Origin: Microvenator marinus
Lineage (GTDB): Bacteria; Myxococcota_A; Bradymonadia; Bradymonadales; Bradymonadaceae
NCBI RefSeq assembly: GCF_007993755.1
Contig: NZ_CP042467.1
Span: forward strand, 893,501 to 957,500
Direction of reading: 5' to 3'
Length of the DNA stretch: 64,000 bases
Below are positions 7,279-20,052 of this stretch, piece after piece; position 1 is the stretch's first letter; each line of letters starts with the position of its first letter. The notes under the pieces are model-generated. The model saw only the letters and a list, made by a program, of their open reading frames with translations. It was not told the DNA's origin and searched no databases. The translations under genes were made by a program, and so were the position numbers.

Positions 7279-8511
7279 ATGAAGAGTTGGACGGAACATC
7301 ATCAAACACTGCTCAACGCACTTCGCGCGCAGGATGTGATTCCCGAACTCATGCTCCGCCTTAGCGACGAGAAGATCGAAGCCACCGATTCCGACCGCAG
7401 AAAACTCCGTGATCTTCCTTCGGCTCTGAAGGAAAGCCCTGCCTGGCCACTGATTGAACAGAGCATGACCACGCCCAGAGCTTGGCCAAAGATCCTCGAC
7501 AGAATTCGTGAAAGGGGCCTCATCCCGCGCGCGGACCACCACCTTTTTCTGCTACATTTGCGGCTTAGGTCCGACCTGCTTGAGATGCGTGATTATAGCG
7601 GCGCCAACCGTTGTCTAGAGCAGGCTCTGATTTCATGGCAACACTTGACGCACTCAGGGTACCTTCGCGCATTAGCGCTCGATCTTGCAGGACCTTCGAC
7701 CCCAGTCGAGGAGATCATTTCATCTCTTCTGAACCCCGTCTTGGAGGAAACGAGCCGCTGGTTCTCAGACCTCATCAAGGCGCCCCAGCTCGACTCAACT
7801 GCCCTGAAGGCAGCCTATGAGGCCCTTTTGACGCTCTCGAGATTCGGGGCGCCAGGCACCTCGGAGAGCCTTCTCACTCTCTTGAGTATTCCGGGAAGTG
7901 AGCTTCGCGAATCGCTCACACACTTCGATGTCAACAACGCGAACGCCGAGACCATGCGTCGACCCTTCGCGCGGATGGTTGAGCTCGGTGAGATCCTCTC
8001 TTGGCCTGATGCGCTGGTCATCGATACGGTGGGCGAAGCGGTTGAGTTCGCGTGGTCTCTTCGTCGCATCGAAAGAGACCGCGAGCCGTTTTTTGACGAA
8101 CTCATCGAGCTCTGTGCTCCCGCAAATGACGTGCTTTTTTCCCGACTCAACGAAGACATACTCGTGGGGCAGAACTCGCGATGCGCAGATTTTCTGGTCT
8201 TTCAGGCAGAGCCGCTCCTCGGCTCTCGGCGCGAGATTCTTCTCCGGCAGGGGTTGGAGATTTGCCCAGGCCACAGAAATAGCGCCATGTTGCTGAGCTT
8301 TATCGCGATTCGCGAAGCGAATGAATTGCTCGATCAGGTCTCCAAACTCCCGACTTTGACCAAGAGAACCGGCGAGCCAGAGAAGATTCTCAAAAAAGCC
8401 GGGATACAACTCAAAGACGCTCAAGATCTGCACCCGTTCTCAGAGCGGCTTCAAGAGGCACAAGCAAGGCTCGAAGTAGAAGCCACACGGTTTGAAGTGG
8501 AGCTCGAATGA
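7279..8511 (+). CDS. Helical-repeat protein of unknown function, Hsp70 cassette
   Basis: A 410-residue, soluble, almost wholly alpha-helical protein with no signal peptide or membrane segment. I do not recognise a family. Helix pairs such as LRSDLLEMRDYSGANRCLEQALISW suggest a TPR- or HEAT-like solenoid, which would fit a scaffold or adaptor. It is the first gene of a tightly overlapping set: its TGA overlaps the ATG of the J-like gene, which overlaps the Hsp70 gene, which overlaps a second helical-repeat gene. A role as a cofactor or client-delivery protein for that Hsp70 is inference from context only. Confidence 0.75.
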   Translation: MKSWTEHHQTLLNALRAQDVIPELMLRLSDEKIEATDSDRRKLRDLPSALKESPAWPLIEQSMTTPRAWPKILDRIRERGLIPRADHHLFLLHLRLRSDLLEMRDYSGANRCLEQALISWQHLTHSGYLRALALDLAGPSTPVEEIISSLLNPVLEETSRWFSDLIKAPQLDSTALKAAYEALLTLSRFGAPGTSESLLTLLSIPGSELRESLTHFDVNNANAETMRRPFARMVELGEILSWPDALVIDTVGEAVEFAWSLRRIERDREPFFDELIELCAPANDVLFSRLNEDILVGQNSRCADFLVFQAEPLLGSRREILLRQGLEICPGHRNSAMLLSFIAIREANELLDQVSKLPTLTKRTGEPEKILKKAGIQLKDAQDLHPFSERLQEAQARLEVEATRFEVELE

Positions 8512-15168: not shown

Positions 15169-16119
15169 ATGGTGATTCGTAAGCGATTTGTAGTTCGCGC
15201 TCTCTCGGCGCTTCTTCTTGGTGCCATGGCTCTGCCCGCCTGTGGCGGTGCCCAACGTGATTCTGCTCTGACAACAGACCAGGGCAAATTAACCGCGGCA
15301 ACTCAAGAGGGAGACTTCGCAACAACCATGCAAGCTGCCGATGCCGCCTGGGCAAAGCGCGCCGAAAAAGCGAGCCTCATGAGCGCCATAGGCGAATGGG
15401 AAAAAGCGGCGCAGCTGCCGACTCCCGACCTCGCTCCGGAAGCCCGTGCCGCCGTCATTGCGGACATCAATGAGCGCCTGACTCGCGCTTACTACTTCCT
15501 CGGCGATAGCCACCTTAGAGTTGAAGGTGCTTCTGACGAAGAGATCATGGCCGTCTTTGAGAAAGGCGTAACGGCAGCCGAGCGTGCGATTGCCCTGCGC
15601 GATCCAGAATTTGCCGCGAAAGTGGCCGCCGATAAGAACGCCTGGCAAGGTGCCGTCAAGTCCGCAAGCCCTACGGCCGCTCCTGCCCTCTACTGGTATG
15701 CAACCAACCTCGGCAAATGGGCCCTTCTTGAAGGGATCGCCACCATTCTTTCCAGAAAAGACGACATCAAAGTCACCATGGACTGGATCGTTGCGAACGA
15801 CCCGGGCTTCTTCTACGGCGCGCCTCATCGCTACTTCGGCACTTACCACACCAAAGTGCCTCTCGGCGGCGGCAACCCTGAAGCCTCCAAAGCATCCTTT
15901 GAAAACGCGATCCAGATCGCGCCTAACTACCTCGCCACCAAAGTCTTGATGGCTGAGAACTACGCAGTGCTCGTTGGAGAACGTGAACTCTTCGAGAGCT
16001 TGCTGAATGAAGTCGTCAACACCCCGTCAAACGTTGACCCGGAGATCGAGCCGGAAAATGCCTTCGAAAAGATGAAGGCGAAGAAATTGCTCGAAGAAGC
16101 TGACGAGTACTTCTATTGA
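15169..16119 (+). CDS. TRAP transporter TatT-component-like lipoprotein
   Basis: A 316-residue protein starting MVIRKRFVVRALSALLLGAMALPACGG, a lipoprotein signal with lipobox LPAC. The mature part is all-helical with TPR-like pairs and matches the TatT family described with Treponema pallidum TRAP transporters, where a trimeric TPR lipoprotein partners the solute-binding protein. The frame is open back to 14884, inside mgtE, but AGGGAG seven bases before the ATG at 15169, the signal peptide and the promoter position support this start. It heads a TatT-P-Q-M operon, so it probably helps deliver a hydrophobic or organic-acid ligand to the substrate-binding protein. Confidence 0.85.
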   Translation: MVIRKRFVVRALSALLLGAMALPACGGAQRDSALTTDQGKLTAATQEGDFATTMQAADAAWAKRAEKASLMSAIGEWEKAAQLPTPDLAPEARAAVIADINERLTRAYYFLGDSHLRVEGASDEEIMAVFEKGVTAAERAIALRDPEFAAKVAADKNAWQGAVKSASPTAAPALYWYATNLGKWALLEGIATILSRKDDIKVTMDWIVANDPGFFYGAPHRYFGTYHTKVPLGGGNPEASKASFENAIQIAPNYLATKVLMAENYAVLVGERELFESLLNEVVNTPSNVDPEIEPENAFEKMKAKKLLEEADEYFY

Positions 16120-16140: not shown

Positions 16141-17142
16141 ATGAAAACACCACTTATCCTCTTACTTGCACTGACTCTCATTGGCTTTGCCAGTCCCGTT
16201 GCGGCGCAGGAGAAGGAACAAGAGATCTACACGCTAAACCTAGGTACCGTGGCGCCCAAAAACACGCCTTGGGGGCGTCAACTGGCGTCCATGAAGAAGC
16301 GAATCGAAAAAGATTCCAACGGACGCATCAAAGTCCGACTTTTCATGGGCACAGCGGGCGGCGAGGTCTCTATCGTGAGACAAACCAAACGCGGCGAACT
16401 CCAGGCAGCCGGTGTGTCCACGGGCGCGCTCGCTAGCCTAGTTCCCGAAATGAACGTCTTTGAGCTTCCTTACCTTTTCAAAGACGGTGCTGAGGCCGAC
16501 AAGATTATCGACAACCATCTCTTCGATCCCGTCTCCTCGATTCTCGATGAGAACGGATTCAAACTCTATCTCTTCTCTGAGAACGGGTTTAGAAACTTCG
16601 CGACGAAGGGAAAGTGCATCACCGACCCGAAAGACCTGGCTGACCTCAAGATGCGCGCTCAGGAGTCGTGGGTGCACGAAGAAACCTATCGTGCCCTTGG
16701 CGGAAACCCTGTGAGAATCGCCGTGCCTGAGACTCTGAGCGCAATTCAATCGAATAACGTTCAAGGCTTTGATAACACGCCGCTCTTCGCGTTTGCCGCA
16801 AGCTGGCATCAGGGAATCGACCATTGGACGCTCAGCGACCACATTTACCAGCCAGCCGTGATCGTCTACTCCAAGGAGTGGTTCGAAAAACTCCCGAAAG
16901 ACCTTCAGGAAATCTTGCTCGCCGACCGGAAGAAAGAGACTGACATGGGGCGCGACCTCGTCAGAAAACTGCATCCGAAGTTGGTTCAGAACCTCGAAGC
17001 GTCGAACATCAAAGTATGTTCGGTCACTCCTGCCCAACGCAAAGCCTTTGCTGACAAGACCAAGTCTGTACACAACTTGTTCAAAAAGCGAGTCGGCAAG
17101 AAGGGCGCAAATCTACTAGACATCATCGAAAAGAACCGCTGA
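16141..17142 (+). CDS. TRAP transporter substrate-binding protein, DctP/TatP type
   Basis: A 333-residue periplasmic protein with a cleavable signal (MKTPLILLLALTLIGFASPVAAQ). After it come the DctP-family blocks: LGTVAPKNTPWGRQL, then RIKVRLFMGTAGGE, then the carboxylate-binding region with RNFATKGKCITDPKDLADLKMRAQES. The Arg in KMRAQES corresponds to the conserved ligand-binding Arg of this family. GGAG lies seven bases before the ATG. With the TatT-like gene before it and Q and M genes after it, it should capture the ligand for sodium-driven uptake. The ligand itself cannot be named. Confidence 0.9.
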   Translation: MKTPLILLLALTLIGFASPVAAQEKEQEIYTLNLGTVAPKNTPWGRQLASMKKRIEKDSNGRIKVRLFMGTAGGEVSIVRQTKRGELQAAGVSTGALASLVPEMNVFELPYLFKDGAEADKIIDNHLFDPVSSILDENGFKLYLFSENGFRNFATKGKCITDPKDLADLKMRAQESWVHEETYRALGGNPVRIAVPETLSAIQSNNVQGFDNTPLFAFAASWHQGIDHWTLSDHIYQPAVIVYSKEWFEKLPKDLQEILLADRKKETDMGRDLVRKLHPKLVQNLEASNIKVCSVTPAQRKAFADKTKSVHNLFKKRVGKKGANLLDIIEKNR

Positions 17143-17161
17143 TCCCAATTTTGGAGTGAGC

Positions 17162-18166
17162 ATGGCGGAAGAACGTAACTCTGCCGAGTTGGCCGACCGA
17201 ATCCCCGCATTCGGCCGGGTCGACCATCTTGTGTTCAAAGTCGAATCAGTGGTCGTTGTGGCGGCCCTGATAGCGATGAGCATCTTTGTTTTTGTGGACG
17301 TTCTCTACCAACTCATGGTGGCGATAGACCAATATCATGGCCAATCGGACCCCAAAGGCTGGCTCATTGCTGGGCTCTTGATCGTCTTTGTGGGTGCGAT
17401 GGGTTACGCGTCCACGTCCAATGTTCATTTCTCTCAAGGAAAACGCATCGGGATCAGTGTGGGGGCCACGCTCGCTCTAATCGGCTTCAGTGTATCGCTG
17501 ACCCAATTGGAGAGCTCCACGGTCTACCGAGCTCTAAGCATTGGAGTCGGAGCGGTGCTGGTCTGGCATTTCCAAAAGACCGGGTCCAAGCCTGGTTTGA
17601 TAGTAAGCCTGGCCGCAACAGCGCTCTTTTTCTGGTTCTCGGGTGGAATCCCACAAGGCTATTCGTGGGCGCAATCTTATAGTTTGCTCCTCCTTTTGTG
17701 GGTTGGGTTCTTGGGTGCAAGCATGGCCGCTCGTCAGCGGCGCCACTTGAGGGTCGACCTCGCTCGAAAGCTCCTCTCCCCTCAGAAACTTCCGCTTTTC
17801 AACGCTCTCTCCTACAGTGCTGCCGCGATTTTCAGCGGGATCATTTTTTACCTTTCTTACATCTACATTTTCGACGTTCAGTCTACGTATATCCGCCCAA
17901 TTTGGGAGTTTCCGGACTGGGTTCCTGCGGGTTTGCAAGAGACGCTACAAGTCTGGCCTCCCCCAGAAGACGCCGGACTCTTTGAGCGCATTATGCGCGT
18001 CGTGCTTTCTCCTATCGAGTCCGGAGAGCCACCGGATTGGCTCAAGGTCTTGGCGATTCCGGTCGCGTTTGCGCTGATCACCATTCGCTTCGGCATGCAC
18101 GCATTTGTATTTCTGAGGATGGCCTTGCGAAAAGAGAGCTTCGAAGAAGCCGTGGAGGTGCACTAA
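17162..18166 (+). CDS. TRAP transporter small permease (DctQ-like), enlarged
   Basis: A 334-residue membrane protein. The DctQ fold normally has four helices in about 160-200 residues; here there are seven or eight hydrophobic segments. The N-terminal pair (VVVVAALIAMSIFVFVDVLYQ) and the central block LGASMAARQRRHLRVDL resemble DctQ, so an additional set of helices is inserted between residues 75 and 170. The ATG at 17162 has GGAG five bases upstream and is preferred to the in-frame GTG at 17156. The stop overlaps the large-permease ATG by one base, as expected for partners of one complex. Confidence 0.8.
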   Translation: MAEERNSAELADRIPAFGRVDHLVFKVESVVVVAALIAMSIFVFVDVLYQLMVAIDQYHGQSDPKGWLIAGLLIVFVGAMGYASTSNVHFSQGKRIGISVGATLALIGFSVSLTQLESSTVYRALSIGVGAVLVWHFQKTGSKPGLIVSLAATALFFWFSGGIPQGYSWAQSYSLLLLLWVGFLGASMAARQRRHLRVDLARKLLSPQKLPLFNALSYSAAAIFSGIIFYLSYIYIFDVQSTYIRPIWEFPDWVPAGLQETLQVWPPPEDAGLFERIMRVVLSPIESGEPPDWLKVLAIPVAFALITIRFGMHAFVFLRMALRKESFEEAVEVH

Positions 18167-20052
18167 TGCGTAGATTCATCTCGAGCTTCTTTGCCATATT
18201 CCTGGTCTTTTTCTACCTTGGCGCCGCCTCAGCACAGCCTGAGACGCTCGACTCCCTCATGGACGAGGTAGAGAGTGAAATCGCTGAAGAAAACGCTGAC
18301 GAGCCATCTGGCGAGCCCACAGAGGTCAAGACTCTGGACGAGTTGATGGACGACGTGATGGACCCGGTCGAGGACGAACCTTTGGCCGAAGATCCCACGG
18401 AAGATGCCTCAGTAGAAGAAATTGTTGAGGCGCCGCCGGAGGCGCCGTCTCCTTACGACGGGTTCTTCTGGTTCGGGCTCATCGCGCTCATCGTGGGCCT
18501 GATTGGGTTGGGAGTACCACTTTATGTGCTCATTGGGTCCATCGCCACGTATCTGCTCTTCTTCGGCGGCGTCTTCAACGAGTTCCGGCTCCTGACGTCT
18601 ATCATTGAGCAAACTCGCGCACTTGCTGACCAACCGGTCCTCCTCGCGATTCCGTTCTTCGTGATCTCGGGTGCGATTATGACCGAAGGAGATATTGCCA
18701 AACGTCTCATCGCCTTTGCGCAGTCCGTTTTTGGTGTACTACCTGGCGGACTCGCAATCTCTGCGGTCTTCGCGAGCGTCTTCTTTGCGGCGATCAGCGG
18801 CTCCTCACCTGTCACAGTGATCGCGATCGGGAGTATCATGTTCCCGGCGCTCGTTAAGGCTGGCTACGACCAACGATTCAGCACAGGTCTTGTTACTTCA
18901 GCAGGAAGCCTTGGAATTCTGATTCCTCCCAGCATCCCGATGATCATCTACGCCATCGCAGACCCCACCGGGCTCAAAGATCCCGTCGGCTACACGGTCT
19001 CATCGGCGGGCGGCGGCGATTCAAGTGTCAAGGACCTCTTCATCGCGGGTCTTGGCCCCGGAATTCTCATCTGCCTCGCGCTCTCTCTCTGGGCCTTTAG
19101 AATCGGTCTGATTCAAAAAGTCGAACGCGAGAAGTTCGATATCAAGGAAGTGGGGCGTGCATTCGTATCGGGATTCTGGGCGCTCAATCTCCCAATCATC
19201 ATTCTGGGCGGCATCTATTCGGGAATCTTCACTGCGACCCAGGCAGCCGCTGTTTCGGTCATCTACGCTGCAGCCGTGGAGTTCTTCATCCACAAGAGCA
19301 TCAAGCTCAAAGATGTCCCTCGCGTTTTCAGCGAAAGCGCGATCCTGATGGGAAGCCTTCTCATCATCATGGCTCTGGCGCTGGGCTTCAATCTCTACTT
19401 GGACCGAGCGAAAATCCCTGAAATGGCCGTGGAGTACATCCTGAGCCTCGACCTGAGCCTGATTACGTTCCTCCTTCTGGTGAACGTGCTTTTGATCATC
19501 GTCGGCTTCTTCATGGATATCATCTCGGCCATCTTGATCCTTGTTCCACTTCTGGCTCCGATCGCGTTTGGACTGGGAATTCACCCACTCCACATGGCCA
19601 TCATCTTCATCGTGAACCTGGAAATCGGCTACCTCACGCCGCCGATCGGCCTAAACCTCTTCGTATCCAGCACGCTCTTTAAGAAGTCTATCGGCGAGGT
19701 AGTGCGCTCTACCCTGCCCTTCACCGCGATCATGGTCGTCTGCCTTATCATCGTGACCTACGTACCTACCGTCAGTCTCGGCCTCGTGAGCTTCTCTAAA
19801 GGCCAGGGATTCTGGGTGCCTTGGCCAGATACTCAGGTCGAAAAGGTTGAAGATGCGCCCGCCGAGGCTGAGCCACAGGTCGTTGCGCCACCGGCCGAAG
19901 CCGACGGCAGCGCAAAAACCTTGGATCAGCTGATGGATGATGTGGAAGAAGAGATCGAGGAACCAGTCGACTCGGCGCCTAAGACTTTAGACGAGTTGAT
20001 GGACGACGTTGAAGATGAAATAGCTGATGAACCCGATGGCTCAACGCCCTGA
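18166..20052 (+). CDS. TRAP transporter large permease (DctM-like) with acidic terminal repeats
   Basis: A 628-residue protein. Residues 100-565 are the DctM permease, with about 12 hydrophobic segments and typical motifs such as AISGSSPVTVIAIGSIMFP and GILIPPSIPMIIYAI. Unusually it begins with a signal-peptide-like segment (MRRFISSFFAIFLVFFYLGAASAQ) and an acidic region before the first helix, and ends with another acidic region. Both regions carry two copies of a TLDxLMDxV motif (26-39, 55-68, 584-597 and 606-619). Normal DctM proteins are about 430 residues and lack these ends. The frame is open upstream to 18037 but ATG 18166 overlaps the DctQ stop. Its last 12 bases overlap hflC convergently. 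Confidence 0.9.
   Translation: MRRFISSFFAIFLVFFYLGAASAQPETLDSLMDEVESEIAEENADEPSGEPTEVKTLDELMDDVMDPVEDEPLAEDPTEDASVEEIVEAPPEAPSPYDGFFWFGLIALIVGLIGLGVPLYVLIGSIATYLLFFGGVFNEFRLLTSIIEQTRALADQPVLLAIPFFVISGAIMTEGDIAKRLIAFAQSVFGVLPGGLAISAVFASVFFAAISGSSPVTVIAIGSIMFPALVKAGYDQRFSTGLVTSAGSLGILIPPSIPMIIYAIADPTGLKDPVGYTVSSAGGGDSSVKDLFIAGLGPGILICLALSLWAFRIGLIQKVEREKFDIKEVGRAFVSGFWALNLPIIILGGIYSGIFTATQAAAVSVIYAAAVEFFIHKSIKLKDVPRVFSESAILMGSLLIIMALALGFNLYLDRAKIPEMAVEYILSLDLSLITFLLLVNVLLIIVGFFMDIISAILILVPLLAPIAFGLGIHPLHMAIIFIVNLEIGYLTPPIGLNLFVSSTLFKKSIGEVVRSTLPFTAIMVVCLIIVTYVPTVSLGLVSFSKGQGFWVPWPDTQVEKVEDAPAEAEPQVVAPPAEADGSAKTLDQLMDDVEEEIEEPVDSAPKTLDELMDDVEDEIADEPDGSTP

Follow-up and report, generated by a model that had tools for sequence, protein, structure and literature searches.

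How does an otherwise ordinary TRAP permease come to carry an acidic motif in four copies, two at either end, and what might these copies bind? The question was raised by a DctM gene in the window, the whole stretch of 64,000 nucleotides from Microvenator marinus that was analysed. The earlier note had described the motif and proposed that its copies are amphipathic helices with one common partner, perhaps the TatT-like lipoprotein or neighbouring permeases.

The operon and its DctM permease

Profile matches identified the locus as a TPAT-type TRAP operon with genes for a TatT-like lipoprotein, DctP, DctQ and DctM, all on the + strand. The T-component gene adjoins those of DctP, DctQ and DctM in one gene run (PF16811, PF03480, PF04290 and PF06808), the arrangement by which the operon was assigned to TPAT. 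The features were as follows.

15169..16119, + strand: gene of the TatT-like T-component lipoprotein (PF16811, 113.8 bits, profile 72-263; start 15169 set by inspection)
from about 15241, + strand: mature TatT-like lipoprotein, behind the lipobox LPAC (read from the sequence)
16141..17142, + strand: gene of the DctP-type solute-binding protein (PF03480, 202.1 bits)
17156..18166, + strand: DctQ gene, unusually long at 336 aa (PF04290, 53.8 bits, residues 169-258 only)
18166..20052, + strand: DctM gene, 628 aa (PF06808, 316.3 bits, residues 108-535; PDB homologs 9pym and 7qha)
18166..18234, + strand: signal-peptide-like segment, DctM residues 1-23, apparent cleavage ASA|Q (read from the sequence)
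18235..18456, + strand: N-arm, DctM residues 24-97 (pI 4.05, net charge -27)
18241..18285, + strand: motif copy 1, ETLDSLMDEVESEI, residues 26-40 (modelled helix 28-44)
18328..18372, + strand: motif copy 2, KTLDELMDDVMDPV, residues 55-69 (modelled helix 57-62)
18457..19800, + strand: DctM membrane core, residues 98-545 (from profile, homologs and model)
19801..20049, + strand: C-arm, DctM residues 546-628 (residues 551-628: pI 4.05, net charge -24)
19915..19959, + strand: motif copy 3, KTLDQLMDDVEEEI, residues 584-598 (modelled helix 586-598)
19981..20025, + strand: motif copy 4, KTLDELMDDVEDEI, residues 606-620 (modelled helix 608-620)

The dctQ stop and the DctM gene overlap by one base. The span first given for the repeat, 18241..20022, corresponds to the first residue of copy 1 through the last of copy 4, and the gene itself is longer at both ends. 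Additional hydrophobic segments were seen in DctQ ahead of its PF04290 match.

The DctM core matched PF06808 over profile positions 3-412 of 413, a full-model domain match. An AlphaFold2 model of DctM, built with 16 sequences and having a mean pLDDT of 68.9, resembled the solved M-subunits (7qha_B, TM 0.81 by target length; 9pym_A, E 4.5e-19). Judged by sequence, DctM is a normal TRAP permease plus two added arms, both probably periplasmic as argued below. Tails are absent from the other DctM encoded in this genome (L002, L037).

Motif copies, predicted helices and topology

The copies were described by the consensus [ST]-L-[ED]-x-[LM]-M-x-[ED]-[VL]. The four-copy repeat, with two copies behind the signal-peptide-like start and two in the C-tail, was confirmed. 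For the shuffle test, both tails were randomized 50,000 times with composition kept and searched with the pattern [ST][LIM]x[EDQS][LM]Mx[ED][VLI]; one copy was found in 6 of the 50,000 shuffles and two or more in 0 of 50,000. The repeat exceeds chance. At the DNA level, a strict pattern gave four matches in the 5.85-Mb genome, all inside this DctM gene, and its reverse gave 0 matches in the same genome. A relaxed pattern added two matches, in a QueE-like protein and in the wrong frame of a MutS-like gene (both named by eye); the idea of a module shared elsewhere in the genome was rejected, these extra matches being only chance-like.

Pairwise comparison of the copies gave 7 to 12 identical residues, of which 3 to 10 differ in codon. 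With so many shared residues spelled by different codons, a recent duplication of the DNA was rejected as the source of the copies. Nor was there a signal that one arm had been copied in register from the other (copy 1 with 3, copy 2 with 4): in-register pairs gave 89 matches, out-of-register pairs 81, and pairs inside a single arm 84. Multiple copies, a conserved core and disordered flanks occur together here, as in short linear motifs.

In the AlphaFold2 model each motif helix begins just after the conserved [ST], within surroundings of mostly low confidence. The N-arm is predicted to be mostly disordered apart from the motifs, with pLDDT mostly low beyond the copy 1 helix, and the C-arm to be mostly disordered from about residue 557, with pLDDT below 50 at 557-608 and 620-628; the C-arm helices themselves carry low confidence. 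The positions L, L/M, M and V, at a spacing of 3, 4 and 7, would form one face of the motif helix. The invariant L and M, the [ST] at the N-cap and the modelled helices all favour the earlier suggestion that the copies are amphipathic helices.

For topology, the solved PpSiaQM was used as reference, in which the M-subunit is N-out/C-out and the Q-subunit N-in/C-in, according to the excerpted text of the source (PMC9971032). The window DctM core aligns over nearly the whole of a solved M-subunit, and both DctM arms should therefore be periplasmic by homology with PpSiaM. Both ends would then probably lie on the same side of the membrane, on which the idea of a shared partner leans, and the signal-like start of DctM fits a periplasmic N-arm.

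Conservation of the arms among relatives

The five orthologs in the family (G000, G004, G005, G010 and G012) each carry exactly four copies, one pair following a signal-like N-terminus and the other pair at the C-end. Neither the first L nor the M varies in any of the 20 copies of these five proteins. Copies are more alike within one protein (8.5 of 12 positions) than between proteins (6.2 of 12), a likeness reached in 0 of 20,000 permutations; such a pattern would be expected of copies adapted to a single common partner. Beyond the family, the 11 relatives aligned lack the N-arm, and the C-arm persists. Alignment A4 was made without the four N-arm rows, and in alignment A1 the nine minus-strand rows end one residue short, with no bearing on the conclusions.

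A regular expression for the motif matched 33 of 115 distinct DctM sequences, with 63 instances in total. Positions left free in the expression were also conserved: K (31/63) or Q (11/63) before [ST], E (42/63) two places after the motif M, and A (35/63) at the next position. In a tree of 114 DctM cores, a quick tree with several open forks, 49 Myxococcota-type rows formed one clade (SH-aLRT 94). Long C-tails were present in 49 of 49, of which 33 have the motif [ST][LIM]xx[LM]M and 16 other sequences. The expression overlooks variants with an extra residue (SELDALM and SELEGLM in L042 and L107), and the 'other' tails therefore include degenerate motifs. A second clade of 40 rows, mostly from other phyla, had short tails in 40 of 40, which agrees with the earlier note's statement that DctM permeases lack such ends; seven more long tails sit elsewhere in the tree. 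Named genera with the arm include Enhygromyxa, Archangium and Sandaracinus. The search in relatives' DctM, proposed in that note as a check, thus found the motif kept, so that the note's own test for refutation left its proposal standing. Its retention in Myxococcota relatives with a similar arm suggests an unrecognised way for importers to hold partner proteins.

Other properties of the arm are less constant. Linkers vary freely in length and composition, acidity ranges from net -2 to -10 in Archangium-type tails to +4 in L125, and several relatives (L051, L116 and L123) have a single copy.

Candidate partners and competing explanations

We consider it about an even chance (roughly 50%) that the arms act in the periplasm as multivalent tethers which capture TatT and/or DctP, the extracytoplasmic subunits of this TPAT-type TRAP transporter. 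Each arm is a flexible acidic linker in which a short motif prone to form a helix occurs twice. Docking would involve the amphipathic motif helix, whose face of L, L/M, M and V would fit into a groove on the partner. The arms would in this way keep the partner near the QM permease, whether this is the TatT trimer, DctP carried by TatT, or the complex of T and P, and loaded DctP would be spared a diffusive search for the membrane.

In favour of TatT are its place beside the other subunit genes in the window and its distribution. Of 26 genomes with the arm, 25 also have TatT, compared with 40 of the 89 other genomes, in a count uncorrected for kinship. TatT is also retained when its gene lies apart from Q-M, lineage-A TatT being present in 14 of 15 genomes searched; G071 has T together with P at one locus and Q together with M at a second. 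G091, a genome 91% complete, has a one-copy arm, and two profiles detected no TatT in it. On the tree, arm presence and an adjacent TatT gave no signal (5 independent pairs). Fused-QM TPAT systems are mostly armless (L058, L124, L130, L136, L148, L070 and L071, with TatT and without the arm), and two TPAT systems from outside Myxococcota (L128 and L176) likewise have TatT and lack the arm. The DctM arm as a strict correlate of TatT was accordingly discarded, being unsupported on the tree and contradicted by the fused-QM systems.

A structure prediction of TatT, DctP and the N-arm as one chain gave confident TatT and DctP, motif helices with pLDDT of about 52, and output without contacts. Of the proposal of helices with one common partner, perhaps TatT, the helical part is supported, and the partner part drew nothing from this co-fold, which returned low-confidence tail helices and no contact information. 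A single partner for all four copies, and TatT in that role, are putative; the acidity of TatT, the mostly armless fused-QM TPAT systems and the lack of tree signal with adjacent TatT count against the latter.

Mature TatT has a pI of 4.8 and a net charge of -14, and mature DctP a pI of 9.2 and a net charge of +7. TatT is acidic like the arms, and charge therefore gives it no advantage. An arm that binds DctP alone, in which acidic linkers and helical motif concentrate the basic protein at the membrane and leave TatT uncontacted, would account for these charges in view of the -27 and -24 of the arms. However, a basic DctP also occurs where DctM is armless (for example L037, pI 9.0; L067, 9.7), and some systems with an arm have an acidic DctP (L069, pI 4.8; L045, 5.5), and ordinary TRAP systems have DctP without any arm, so that we hold binding of DctP alone to be rather unlikely. 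Electrostatic attraction to DctP was rejected as the chief cause, since DctP charge does not track the presence of arms. Taken together, TatT or the T-P complex appears somewhat ahead of DctP alone as the partner.

Pairing of N- and C-arm helices within or between DctM molecules, by which permeases would cluster, could draw on four near-identical helices in one protein and on their greater likeness within than between proteins. Such self-association is nevertheless improbable: strongly acidic arms are unfavourable for self-pairing, some relatives have a single copy, and the C-arm helices were of low confidence in the DctM model. A further explanation has nothing to do with TatT and DctP: the arms would bind some other partner in the periplasm or cell wall, or would serve as a signal for quality control or a protease. 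It could invoke G091, with its motif tail and no detected TatT, and a Sandaracinus Q-M locus (L117) with four copies and neither T nor P found alongside; the fact that 14 of 15 genomes searched for TatT encode it at another site speaks against it, and we judge it quite improbable. The free variation of linker length and composition would also be seen if the tails were neutral acidic low-complexity extensions, for instance in adaptation to salt, with the motif incidental. This is very improbable, as no shuffle reached two copies, L and M are invariant in 20 of 20 copies despite many codon differences, and the motif is retained where acidity is lost.

Comparison with known systems and other repeats

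The window DctM shares with DctM/SiaM proteins (PF06808; PpSiaQM 7qha, IseQM 9pym) the same membrane core and fold and probably, by homology, the N-out/C-out topology. The five matching solved sequences extend no more than about 10 residues past the aligned core (for example 7qha_B, 421 of 427; 9pym_A, 631 of 635); unlike these M-subunits, the window DctM has long motif-bearing arms at both ends. In the Treponema pallidum TPAT (TatT-TatP-TatQM) a T-component lipoprotein likewise lies beside DctP, DctQ and DctM genes, and the excerpted description reports a T-component trimer with a pore, in complex with DctP (PMC5812351). There Q and M are fused, and arms or repeats go unmentioned in that excerpt, whereas the window has separate Q and M with arms on M. 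The TAXI binding protein BP0403 and the TAXI-GltS fusions share the common idea of a binding protein kept near its permease; as given in the excerpted source (PMC12344293), the binding protein itself is anchored or fused there, whereas in the window the permease would carry the docking motifs. In the literature searched, which took in few subscription papers, no description of the motif repeat or of such arms on TRAP transporters was found, and within that literature conserved docking-like arms on an ordinary TRAP permease of a TPAT system are previously undescribed.

In our judgement TRAP and TPAT systems raise two questions: how a binding protein in free diffusion reaches its membrane permease, and what the contribution of the T-component is. 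Conserved docking arms, if true, could be mutated to address both questions directly, and would aid in finding TPAT substrates. TPAT systems have been proposed as carriers of hydrophobic molecules, as stated in the excerpted part of PMC5812351, and BstC, a relative of TatT, features in a study of proteins that bind sterols, likewise consulted as an excerpt (PMC10942540).

A repeat of another kind was found in the genome's other TPAT operon (L037, G000:C1:5093000-5112000), whose DctM is tailless. Its DctQ ORF, at about 7562-8482, has five FGGGF copies with acidic spacers in a loop after the first hydrophobic segment. DctQ proteins bearing FGGGF occurred in 8 of 8 members of this paralogous TPAT lineage (L037 and seven alike, all with a tailless DctM), with 3 to 10 copies, and no other ORF with two FGGGF copies was present among 11,742 stop-to-stop frames of the loci examined. 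The loop would be periplasmic because the Q-subunit of PpSiaQM is N-in/C-in. These observations suggest that a repeat-bearing periplasmic arm is common in Myxococcota TPAT systems with separate Q and M, the motif differing by system, as though an arm of this kind on either membrane subunit were a frequent requirement of TPAT transport. A wider and tentative generalization, which we think possible though unlikely as a whole, is a fast-evolving periplasmic sticker code in Myxococcota TPAT, in which system-specific repeats (LxxLM helices on DctM, FGGGF on DctQ and others) on mostly acidic spacers would recruit each system's own T-P complex multivalently and keep paralogous systems apart in one cell.

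One more FGGGFG-type DNA match lies in the genome at G000:C1:1091196-1091215, outside the L037 operon. Other multi-copy motifs were noted in the DctM C-tails of L179, L064, L057, L062, L045 and L112 (FGGxPNLLD, LDLDALEE, PMPEEWVPPEE, GDYADDDLGIG, DDDWPPGAG and KPAFDSSGMNM). In L129 and L133 the DctM C-tail is 211 residues long, and a motif-like stretch (KSVTQVMAES or KSVAQVMAES) precedes an apparent small folded domain, and the fused DctQM of L147 has FPGYDEPL three times in an extension of its Q-part.
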